A DNA stretch of 34,346 nt from an uncultured Bacillota bacterium (GCA_946611195.1 CAMODB010000009.1:1-34346); one strand, 5' to 3'. Counted from the stretch's first letter, positions 24,106-29,282 are shown. Program-made: numbers and translations. Notes: generated by a model not told the origin, from the letters alone.

Positions 24106-24915
24106 ATGGAAAATACTAATACAAGCGTAGTAAAAGAAGAACAAACTTGGCAAAAAGTAGTTAAGATTGTTGTAAATGTTATCTTTTATATTTTAATATT
24201 TCTTCTTCTTTTATTCTCAATCGCAAATTTAAATAAGAAAGACCAATATTCCGTACCATCCTTATTTGGTAAAGGATTTACTACTGTTGAAACACCATCA
24301 ATGGCAGGTAACGAAAAAGATTCCTTCACTATGGATGATTTAGTATTTTTAAGTGTTGTTACAGATAAAAATCGTGATAAAAAAGTTAATTCTTTAAAAG
24401 TTGGCGATATTATCTGTTTTAAAGCTTGGAACGCTGAATTAAGACGTGATATGTTAAATACCCATAGAATTGTAGAAATTCATTATGATGATGATGGATC
24501 AGTTCATGAATTTATTACAAAAGGTGATGCTAATGAAGTTCGTGATAGTGTTGAAGTATCATTAGAAGATATTCGTGGTATTTATACAGGTAAATGGGTT
24601 GGTGCTGGTAAAGCTATGAAGTTTTTACAAACATCACTTGGTTTTGGCTTATGTATTGTTCTTCCTGTTGCGTTATTCTTTATCGCGGAATTAGTTATTT
24701 TAATTTTAAGATTGAATAAGATTAAAAAAGATAAGAATGATCAAAAACATGAAGCTGAACTTGAAGCTTTAAGAGAAGCTCAAGCAAAAGCTCTTGAAGA
24801 AGAAAAAGCTCGTATTCGTGCTGAAATCTTAGCTGAACAAGCTAAAGCTAGCGAAGCTGAAGATGAAGCAGAAGAATTAGATGAAACAGAAGAAAATAAA
24901 GAGACTGAAGAATAA
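24106..24915 (+). CDS. Signal peptidase I, SipW/ER-type (Ser/His), with coiled-coil/acidic C-terminal tail
   Basis: VETPSMAG (Ser), LNTHRIVEI (His in place of Lys), ITKGDANEVRD; TMs at both ends; tail KHEAELEALREAQAKALEEEKARIRAEI... Confidence 0.9.
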   Translation: MENTNTSVVKEEQTWQKVVKIVVNVIFYILIFLLLLFSIANLNKKDQYSVPSLFGKGFTTVETPSMAGNEKDSFTMDDLVFLSVVTDKNRDKKVNSLKVGDIICFKAWNAELRRDMLNTHRIVEIHYDDDGSVHEFITKGDANEVRDSVEVSLEDIRGIYTGKWVGAGKAMKFLQTSLGFGLCIVLPVALFFIAELVILILRLNKIKKDKNDQKHEAELEALREAQAKALEEEKARIRAEILAEQAKASEAEDEAEELDETEENKETEE

Positions 24916-24952
24916 AAATTAGAAAAAAATAATTAAAAAAGGAGACGATAGT

Positions 24953-26593: not shown

Positions 26594-28666
26594 ATGGAAG
26601 AAAAAAACCAAGTAAATGAAGAAACTATAGAAAAGAATAGTGATTCGGTTGATACTAATAAAAATAATAATAACGAAGAAGTAGAACTAGAAGTAATTGA
26701 ACCAGATGATAAATTACTTAAATATTATAGAAAAGCAGTAAATAGCTTAAAGAAAGTCGATAATGATTTTTCTAAATATTATATTGAATTAACAAATACT
26801 GGTGATAACAAATTCTATCAAAAAAATATTACGGAAACTAAATTTATTGATGAAACTTGGATTCTAACATTAGAAGGTTTAGTCCAAAGTATTGATAGGA
26901 TTATTCGTAATCCTAAACATACAATAAGATATGAAGATGATATTGTTGTTGTTGAAAAAGCGAAAAAGATTGATTCAGCTTCTGTTCGTCATTTAGCTAG
27001 TCACACAGGTTTAATTAGAGATATCGATCATAAAAGTGGTCAAGTAACGCCTACTAAAATCTTAACAAGATTTGCGGAAGAAGAAATAGCTACATACGAA
27101 AATAGATTTGTCATGACTTTAATTGAAAGATTATATTTATTCGTTAAAGCACGTTATGATATTATTAAAGATAATGTGGAAAGTTATCAACATGATCATT
27201 TATTCTATACCTCTAAATTTAATCTAAAAGATGAAGAAGTATCTTTTAATCTCGATATCGATATCAAAAGAGATTTAGATAATCCTAATATTAATAAACA
27301 TAATATTGAACTTTTACAAAGAGCTAATAATCTAATGATTTTAGTTACTGGTTTTAAAGCTTCATCATTCATGAGAGAAATGGCTAAAGCAAAAAAAGTT
27401 CAACCACCAATCATGAAAACTAACGTTATCTTAAAAAATGCGGACTTTAGAAATGCTTATACCTTATGGTTATTCTTAGACCGTTATAATAGCCTAGCTT
27501 ATGATATCCATGTAAGAGAACGTCCAGTACGATTATCAAAGGAATTTAAGGGCGATTTAGACCATATTTCTGCACTTTCTTATTCCGCATTAGTAAATAA
27601 TAAAAAGAAGAGACAAGAAGATTTTAGAGTCATTGAAAGTATTGAACCAATCGTTAAAAAATCAACAAAGATGGCGAGAACTAATCCGAAAGATGTTGTT
27701 AAAAATCCTGATGCGATTGAAATTCAAGACAATGCGGTAAACGAATATTATCTATTACTTAATAAAAAGATAATGAATCAAAAGATTAATGATCTAATGG
27801 ATCATCGTACAAGCTATTTACAATCTGCTAAAAAGGTAGTTAAAGAAAGTATTGATATCACTAACGCAATGTTCGAATCATATTTCAATTTTGAAGAAGA
27901 TGTCGATTATTTCGATCGTTTTATTCAATCCAGTGATCCTAAGAAAGTATTTGAAAAAGCTAAAGAACAAGCAAGAATTGCGAAAGCCATTAGAGAAGCT
28001 AAAGATAGCGATTATAAACGAAGCATTAAACTTGAGAAAAGTCTTTATTCCGCAATGCTAAAAGCCACTAATGAAAGAGTAAGAGCTATCAATTATCAAA
28101 AGAAACAGGAAGCCTTCAGTGATGTCTTAAAACAACTCGATAAAGAAAATAAACAATTAAAGGCTGAGAAGGAAAGAATCAAAAAACAAATTTCTATTCT
28201 TGATGGTAAATTAGTCGATATTGAAACCGGTAAAACTAATCGTGATACCGAACTTGAACAATTAAAAATAGCTTCAGATGAAGAAATGAATAAAATCAAA
28301 GAAGAAGCAAAGGTTAGAAAGAATACAGAACTAAAGAAAATAGTCGATAAACATAATCAAGAAATGGCAGCTCTAAAAGAACAAATGAATAAAGAATTAG
28401 AAGAAGCCAAAGAAAGAAGAAGAATTCAAATCGAACAAGATAAAGAAAAAGAAAGAATTAAAAAAGAAAAACTAAAAGAACAATTAAAATTAAAAGAACA
28501 AAAAGAAAAAGAACTCTTAAAGAAAAAACTAAATAAAGAAAAAGAAAATCTTAAAAAGAAACATAAAGCTGACCTAACTAAAGTAAAAAATGCTAAATCA
28601 CTTCCTAATAAAAAAACAGAAAAGGATCAAGTTGTAGTTGAAGAAGAAACAAACAACGAAGAATAA
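26594..28666 (+). CDS. DUF2357-like protein with long C-terminal coiled coil, predicted partner of the McrB-like ATPase
   Basis: ATG 26594 with RBS AAGGAGG (26581). TRFAEEEIATYENRFVMTLIERLYLFV resembles DUF2357/McrC-type partners; K/E-rich coiled coil from about residue 470 on. No nuclease motif recognised. Confidence 0.7.
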   Translation: MEEKNQVNEETIEKNSDSVDTNKNNNNEEVELEVIEPDDKLLKYYRKAVNSLKKVDNDFSKYYIELTNTGDNKFYQKNITETKFIDETWILTLEGLVQSIDRIIRNPKHTIRYEDDIVVVEKAKKIDSASVRHLASHTGLIRDIDHKSGQVTPTKILTRFAEEEIATYENRFVMTLIERLYLFVKARYDIIKDNVESYQHDHLFYTSKFNLKDEEVSFNLDIDIKRDLDNPNINKHNIELLQRANNLMILVTGFKASSFMREMAKAKKVQPPIMKTNVILKNADFRNAYTLWLFLDRYNSLAYDIHVRERPVRLSKEFKGDLDHISALSYSALVNNKKKRQEDFRVIESIEPIVKKSTKMARTNPKDVVKNPDAIEIQDNAVNEYYLLLNKKIMNQKINDLMDHRTSYLQSAKKVVKESIDITNAMFESYFNFEEDVDYFDRFIQSSDPKKVFEKAKEQARIAKAIREAKDSDYKRSIKLEKSLYSAMLKATNERVRAINYQKKQEAFSDVLKQLDKENKQLKAEKERIKKQISILDGKLVDIETGKTNRDTELEQLKIASDEEMNKIKEEAKVRKNTELKKIVDKHNQEMAALKEQMNKELEEAKERRRIQIEQDKEKERIKKEKLKEQLKLKEQKEKELLKKKLNKEKENLKKKHKADLTKVKNAKSLPNKKTEKDQVVVEEETNNEE

Positions 28667-29282
28667 GAATGTCTTAACCATTATTATTTCAATAATAACT
28701 GGTTTACTATTTATTCTTGCGGCTTATATTTTTATTTCTGGTCTTGTAGCCAGAAACAACAATTCAATGGCTTCGATCTTTGGTTACACATATTCAGTAG
28801 TACCAACAAACTCTATGGAACCGGATATCAAAGTAGGTGACAGTGTAATTGGTAAAAAAGTAAAATATGATAAATTGAAAATAGGTGATGATATTATTTA
28901 TTATAGTAAAGAAAATAATATCTTTATCGTTCATCGTATCATATCATATGATAAAACTAAAGGATTTTTATGCCAAGGTATCAATAATCCTGGTAGTGAT
29001 AATGAATATGTCACTAAAGATAATTATATTGCAAAAGTAGTATGGAATGGAAGTTTAGCTAATATTGGTAGTTTTATTATCTCTAGTCGAGGTTTTATTT
29101 TAGTAATTCTTTCTCTTGCAATCCTGGTTATCGGTGGTAATGCGGGAATTGAAATCTATAAAGTAATGAAAATTAAAAAACAACAAGAAGAAATCAATGC
29201 CGCAAAAAAACTTCCAACAGAAGAAGAAATAAGACAACAAGTCTTAAAAGAACTTGAAGAAGAAAAAAATAAATTTAATTAA
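28638..29282 (+). CDS. Second signal peptidase I, SipW/ER-type (Ser/His)
   Basis: TTG start overlapping the upstream gene by 29 nt; VVPTNSMEPDIKVGDSVIGKKV and FIVHRIISYD motifs; C-terminal TM plus acidic tail. Confidence 0.85.
   Translation: MKKKQTTKNKNVLTIIISIITGLLFILAAYIFISGLVARNNNSMASIFGYTYSVVPTNSMEPDIKVGDSVIGKKVKYDKLKIGDDIIYYSKENNIFIVHRIISYDKTKGFLCQGINNPGSDNEYVTKDNYIAKVVWNGSLANIGSFIISSRGFILVILSLAILVIGGNAGIEIYKVMKIKKQQEEINAAKKLPTEEEIRQQVLKELEEEKNKFN

Follow-up and report, generated by a model that had tools for sequence, protein, structure and literature searches.

The window analysed here is a whole contig of 34,346 bp from an uncultured Bacillota bacterium (GCA_946611195.1, CAMODB010000009.1:1-34346), whose genome assembly is estimated to be 65% complete, and its centre of interest is a pair of genes for a McrB-like nucleoside triphosphatase (NTPase) and a DUF2357 protein. 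Four co-directional genes occupy positions 24106-29282, all on the + strand. The first encodes SipA (24106..24915), a signal peptidase of the SipW/archaeal type with two transmembrane (TM) segments, and the last SipB (28638..29282), a second SipW-type peptidase. Between them lie the genes for a membrane-anchored McrB-like AAA+ NTPase (24953..26515) and its McrC-N-like DUF2357 partner (26594..28666). A preliminary description of this DNA had the pair flanked by two SipW-type peptidases, and this holds: the open reading frames (ORFs) are found at these positions and both products score above the TIGR02228 cut-off of 51.85 bits (SipA 59.2 bits, 4.2e-16; SipB 77.0 bits, 1.5e-21). Both also match the SipW model, below that model's cut-off. 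The description of the pair itself was correct, but it missed the SipW-type substrates and the two cyclic di-GMP (c-di-GMP) riboswitches that the same window carries. What is a McrB-like NTPase doing between two signal peptidases?

The NTPase and its DUF2357 partner

The NTPase has intact catalytic motifs: a Walker A (GISGTGKT), a Walker B (IVLDEMN) and an NxD motif (GTANRDDST). Walker A, Walker B and NxDDST are kept across 50 homologues, with N361, D363 and D364 invariant. Its earlier assignment to the McrB clade agrees with a family profile that matches McrB in the PDB (6hz4, E 1.4e-5) and with hhalign, which aligns the family to E. coli McrB (96%). Several N-terminal TM segments had been proposed; a TM anchor is indeed present, but as one strong segment (residues 61-79). 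A charged stretch that looks like coiled coil comes next (residues ~80-125), and the AAA+ domain starts at about residue 200 (the TM tests, like the terminator tests below, used simple methods). Pfam finds no reader domain on the NTPase, the N-terminus being TM and coiled-coil-like instead. PADLOC assigns the protein to PDC-M26A (4.1e-39), a candidate-defence label that we consider misleading here.

The partner starts at the ATG at 26594, with AAGGAGG just upstream, and is recognised by PF09823 (5.7e-11). Its relation to McrC rests on this family, because hhalign saw no direct homology to E. coli McrC. In the AlphaFold2 (AF2) model (66-row alignment, mean predicted local distance difference test score (pLDDT) of 78) an alpha/beta core extends to about residue 340 and only helices follow, ending in a long C-terminal coiled coil. 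The coiled coil announced in the preliminary description is therefore there, at ~210 aa (helices 449-660) and not at ~240 aa. Is a nuclease hidden in this protein? The PD-(D/E)XK fold was sought in the model and with Foldseek and was not found: the model has no nuclease sheet and no strand beyond residue 311, and Foldseek returned no significant PDB match. In addition, short homologues of 371-376 aa (L081-L083) consist of DUF2357 alone, with the coiled coil missing. On these grounds the partner, as modelled, is a protein without a nuclease domain, in line with the earlier failure to see a nuclease motif, and a hidden nuclease was rejected on the strength of the model and the short homologues.

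How does the pair relate to known McrBC systems? It shares with E. coli McrBC the AAA+ domain and the two-gene logic of NTPase and activator. E. coli McrB, however, has NxxD (MNTAD) where the window NTPase has NxD, and the window pair has no reader domain and no PD-(D/E)XK nuclease and is membrane-anchored. CoCoNuT systems whose McrC lacks the nuclease would have HEPN or another nuclease associated with them; the window cassette contains none, and HEPN is not among the best 25 of 108 families in 116 neighbouring proteins. Bell et al. (2024) describe a large clade of McrB-like GTPases with the NxD motif, which they named CoCoPALM (PMC11090510). In this clade the GTPase is fused to an FtsB-like domain made of TM and coiled coil, signal peptidases are found in association, and the McrC homologue carries coiled coils as well. 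The clade receives one paragraph there and a fuller study is deferred to a later paper; we found no such paper in the library searched. The window pair resembles CoCoPALM, as described in that paragraph, in its NxD motif, N-terminal TM with coiled-coil-like stretch, signal-peptidase neighbours and the coiled coil on the DUF2357 partner. For the FtsB-like domain, the window NTPase offers TM 61-79 and a charged helix-like region, and the FtsB/DivIC Pfam families match neither this protein nor appear among the 25 families listed for the 50 homologues. Because the NxD, peptidase and partner-coil features are all found together with a TM/coiled-coil-like N-terminus, the pair can be filed, as far as its sequence tells, as a probable case of a kind that has been named but has yet to be studied. 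The preliminary description was right to place the pair outside a restriction setting and was unaware that the kind had been named, so that a reading as secretion or assembly instead of defence is not wholly new. New here are the cassette and its co-occurrence, the c-di-GMP riboswitches, the GGDEF/EAL neighbours and a nested adhesin branch; the main text of PMC11090510, in the parts consulted, does not describe the S1-S3 substrates, riboswitch control or adhesin re-deployment discussed below.

A conserved cassette with c-di-GMP riboswitches

Five genes upstream of SipA (all +) encode a membrane protein and four exported proteins. S1 (15083..15853) is a single-pass membrane protein with a WLEGEDPD ectodomain, whose TM segment has, by alignment, no SipW-type cleavage motif; it is likely the membrane base of a fibre. 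S2 (15870..16826) and S3 (16923..17834) are secreted subunits, both with the SipW-type signal TSTFAWF, with an IWLEGWDADC motif at the C-terminus of S2 and WLEGEDKTC in S3, the latter a candidate for the major subunit. Read from the sequence, signals of S2/S3-type proteins are short, positively charged and end in T-x-A-W-F, which is the SipW type. S1, S2 and S3 probably share ancestry, since the C-terminal W-x-E-G-x-D motif is common to them. Two further exported proteins follow: S4 (18134..19066), with the motif MSITFGWF, and S5 (19038..23984), an Asn/Thr/Tyr-rich protein of 1648 aa with repeat-like stretches and no Pfam match, seen in this window alone among the loci examined.

To what extent do these genes travel with the pair? 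Forty regions around homologues were collected and their genes labelled with profiles seeded from the window. The cassette S1-S2/S3-SipA-NTPase-DUF2357-SipB(-S3) is found in 28 fibre-type loci, the window included, spread over several families; one or more S2/S3 genes stand between S1 and SipA, and the last gene is SipB or S3. DUF2357 lies directly 3' of the NTPase in 27/28 loci and SipA directly 5' of it in 21/28, while at least one SipW-type peptidase is present in all 28. S1 is found in 24/28; the remaining four (L055, L064, L068, L073) are regions that reach a contig end, many genomes being fragmented assemblies in which contig ends limit neighbour counts. One contig (G189 C1 616988-633217) carries two fibre cassettes (L069 and L070) ~14 kb apart, and two NTPases at a similar spacing also occur in G142, G096, G088 and G326.

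The linkage extends to whole genomes. Among 398 of them, S1 and a main-type NTPase (E 1e-100 or better) occur together in 86, the NTPase without S1 in 15, S1 without the NTPase in 4 and neither in 293; the NTPase is thus present in 86/90 genomes with S1, and S1 in 86/101 genomes with the NTPase (Fisher p 8e-66, with genomes that are phylogenetically non-independent). SipW as the sole cause of this linkage was ruled out: it is present in 42/43 genomes of the order, against about half for the NTPase-DUF2357 pair. S1-S3 are also absent from 14 SipW loci of genomes without main-type NTPase. Since SipW is near-universal and these loci do not carry S1-S3, the pair is tied to a particular cargo set and not to SipW generally. 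A search beyond the class, across the phylum, gave the same class for every match among the matches listed, and in named genomes the family yielded 3 loci only, the closest at 86%.

Two c-di-GMP-I riboswitches (+) are predicted to control genes of the cassette, one before S1 (14947..15027, 59.4 bits) and one before S4/S5 (18013..18088, 65.3 bits), both exceeding the RF01051 gathering threshold of 35 bits. Each is preceded by a perfect TTGACA-17-TATAAT promoter (14909-14937 and 17965-17993, respectively). The first overlaps a terminator; at the second, the terminator (18075-18102) shares the 3' arm of the aptamer, so that the two structures are mutually exclusive. At least one aptamer is present in 17/22 fibre-type loci scanned and in 0/7 loci of the adhesin or tandem contexts described below. 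S1 is the gene immediately after 21 of 34 aptamers, and a different S gene comes after 10. In nine genomes that are closed or nearly so, 19/30 aptamers are no more than 8 kb away from an NTPase gene, where 0.58 would be expected; the sole aptamer of genome G104 is 3.7 kb from it. Within the order, the riboswitch is found in 19/22 genomes with main-type NTPase and in 4/21 without. The arrangement with the terminator is conserved too: its 5' arm is the 3' arm of the aptamer in 29/34 cases, compared with 0.7 in shuffled controls. Because of this sharing, ligand binding should block termination, which predicts an ON switch, and it is probable that c-di-GMP induces the operon. The neighbours fit the same theme, EAL (20) and GGDEF (19) being the commonest domains in 116 flanking proteins from 21 loci. 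In the window, this conserved kind of upstream neighbour is represented by a GGDEF-EAL membrane protein (10304..12979, +; EAL 2e-61) and a second GGDEF-EAL protein (13041..14879, +; EAL 1.4e-52), in both of which the GGDEF part looks degenerate.

Side branches and other genes of the window

In a tree of the AAA+ region, five NTPases from a different setting are nested within the fibre clade (L063, L067, L075, L078, L080). Here the NTPase and DUF2357 genes stand behind a ~2,500-aa protein and a TM-anchored protein of 419-467 aa, and neither SipW nor S1 occurs in the immediate surroundings of the pair. In L063, where this setting spans 22-12468, the large protein has nine cadherin-like domains, a signal peptide and a C-terminal TM segment, and the membrane-anchored protein beside it (7885-9201) is a GGDEF-EAL protein with weak domain scores. 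The NTPase-DUF2357 unit thus appears re-deployed to membrane-anchored cadherin-like adhesins, which makes surface display the common denominator. LapA/LapD are c-di-GMP-controlled adhesins, and the L063 branch recalls them by its pairing of a giant adhesin with a weak-scoring, membrane-bound GGDEF-EAL protein; unlike in that system, one would expect neither LapG nor an outer membrane here, and a McrB-like NTPase would take part instead. In a separate clade (L074, L079, L084, L085, L086), a single DUF2357 gene is accompanied on its flanks by two or three genes of NTPase type. The first of these has no Walker A match in four loci, and in L079 and L084 transglutaminase-core or antigen-I/II-like surface proteins follow. 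Another NTPase type, of 600-663 aa with several TM segments, is seen in L087 and L088 with a SipW-like protein upstream and a partner that ends in a CxxC zinc-ribbon-like tail; in L088, ABC-transporter-like genes lie downstream of it.

Outside the cassette, the window encodes a probable c-di-GMP phosphodiesterase just after SipB (29390..30739, +), a membrane protein whose HD-GYP-like motifs (HDIGK, HHE, GYP) were identified by eye. The product of 32874-34136 looks like a solitary AAA_14/DUF4143-type ATPase, and close to its C-terminal end it has a motif that resembles those of nucleases (GEVDFVV...IQVSY). The lipoprotein at 5261-7711 has a C-terminal stretch resembling N-acetylmuramoyl-L-alanine amidase, a similarity that may hint at a cell wall in the host organism. 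An L31-Firmicutes ribosomal leader matches barely above threshold at 3521-3552 (34.2 vs 33.3 bits); the next long ORF starts at 3939 and looks like an aminopeptidase, not L31.

Assembly, clearance or placement?

We have little doubt that the pair is part of a system for surface fibres or surface proteins. A somewhat bolder reading, which we still favour, is that it forms a co-opted, membrane-anchored McrB-like ring in c-di-GMP-controlled surface-fibre biogenesis, and on balance a role in assembly or anchoring seems preferable to one in clearance or placement. By its sequence relationships the pair would descend from a phage-restriction machine that lost its DNA cutter and gained a membrane anchor. 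How could such a machine work? At high c-di-GMP, the ligand would bind the riboswitches before S1 and S4, prevent termination and turn the operon on. S1 would remain in the membrane as a base, while S2, S3 and similar subunits would be exported and then trimmed by SipA or SipB at the T-x-A/WF site. The NTPase would form a ring-shaped McrB-type motor whose N-terminal helix tethers it to the membrane; its activator would be the DUF2357 protein, which has a coiled-coil arm where McrC has its nuclease. Most likely, the ring would reach membrane-bound S1, the subunits or the peptidases from the cytoplasmic side, and so assemble, anchor or space the fibres.

Known counterparts on the fibre side are the TasA/CalY-SipW fibres of Bacillus, which likewise have dedicated SipW-type peptidases and subunits with SipW-type signals. 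An extra gene in the L055 cassette even encodes a member of the TasA/camelysin family (PF12389, 26.0 bits, cut-off 22.5). S1-S3, in contrast, are not recognisable as TasA homologues, and we know of no McrB-like NTPase in the Bacillus systems. A TasA fold for the subunits found no support from Pfam, NCBIfam, PDB sequence search or Foldseek. This is one of several observations that weigh against the proposal. S1-S3 match no Pfam family, TasA/camelysin included (PF12389 is absent from 18/18 S3-type and 22/22 S1 proteins), and the AF2 model of S2 (pLDDT 85) has no PDB fold match by Foldseek; for these reasons fibre formation is something that we infer. Five scanned fibre-type loci (L060, L070, L081-L083) have no riboswitch. 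The second cassette L070 has no DUF2357 gene, and may use the partner of L069. Lastly, relatives without the NTPase still have SipW and exported proteins, so SipW secretion by itself can do without the NTPase.

An AAA+ protein that is anchored in the membrane and has its catalytic motifs intact might instead serve quality control or turnover. It would then be an unfoldase that extracts from the membrane either the peptidases or those S1/S2/S3 precursors that are jammed or in surplus, with fibres regulated by removal. That the NTPase-DUF2357 unit also serves unrelated membrane-anchored surface proteins would suit such a role. We regard it as unlikely, as the conserved cassette has no protease partner besides the signal peptidases, and what the NTPase is tightly linked to is S1 and not SipW at large. 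McrB/DUF2357 pairs are, to our knowledge, not known as protein unfoldases either. Slightly less probable again is a nucleotide-switch scaffold that would place the fibre machine at set cell positions via coiled coils, of which the partner has a long one. The analogy here is PcdA of S. aureus, a McrB-family protein turned cell-division factor, which sets a precedent for co-option and demonstrates that McrB proteins can leave restriction (PMC10602043). PcdA, however, acts in cell division, has EVE domains and degraded Walker motifs and has no DUF2357 (McrC-NTD) partner, whereas motifs and partner are both intact here (PMC10602043).

Could the pair be an anti-phage system after all (type IV restriction, CoCoNuT-like or PDC-M26A), standing beside fibre genes by chance? 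McrB ancestry, the PADLOC match (4.1e-39) and the source name of homologue P0037 ('5-methylcytosine-specific restriction enzym...') would point that way. This is very improbable given a partner without nuclease fold, a TM and coiled-coil N-terminus in place of a DNA reader, GGDEF/EAL and secreted proteins as neighbours and control by c-di-GMP riboswitches. A defence island was ruled out as well: PADLOC matches around the loci are few and mostly to generic ATPase or candidate models, the neighbours carry EAL/GGDEF domains, and homologues sit in the surface-fibre cassette or adhesin operons instead. Least probable of all is mere co-location without common function. Operon inertia could hold such neighbours together; the linkage, though, persists over several families despite variable insertions, S1 and the NTPase co-occur (86/90 and 86/101), and cassettes have been duplicated and the unit re-deployed. 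The preliminary description's idea of a remodelling or secretion/assembly machine, as opposed to defence, is thus supported by the partner without nuclease and by the surface-fibre and adhesin operon neighbours; its mechanism we infer.

In its widest form, the proposal makes the restriction-derived motor a dedicated engine for the assembly or anchoring of a class of c-di-GMP-switched fibres in Acholeplasma-like bacteria. The engine would have been put to use again for giant cadherin-like adhesins, where a degenerate GGDEF-EAL protein would sense c-di-GMP; this we put forward tentatively, giving it somewhat less than even chances. A named but unexplored McrBC branch is hereby tied to a concrete pathway, with a c-di-GMP switch, defined cargo and dedicated peptidases, and the annotation of such proteins as restriction enzymes or defence candidates is corrected. 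Assembly driven by NTP from the cytoplasmic side is, as far as we know, without example in SipW-type fibres, and the cassette suggests that NTP-driven control of this sort may exist. Close homologues in cultivated Acholeplasma species make the function testable. The pair would add to the examples of restriction machinery taken over for functions at the cell surface.

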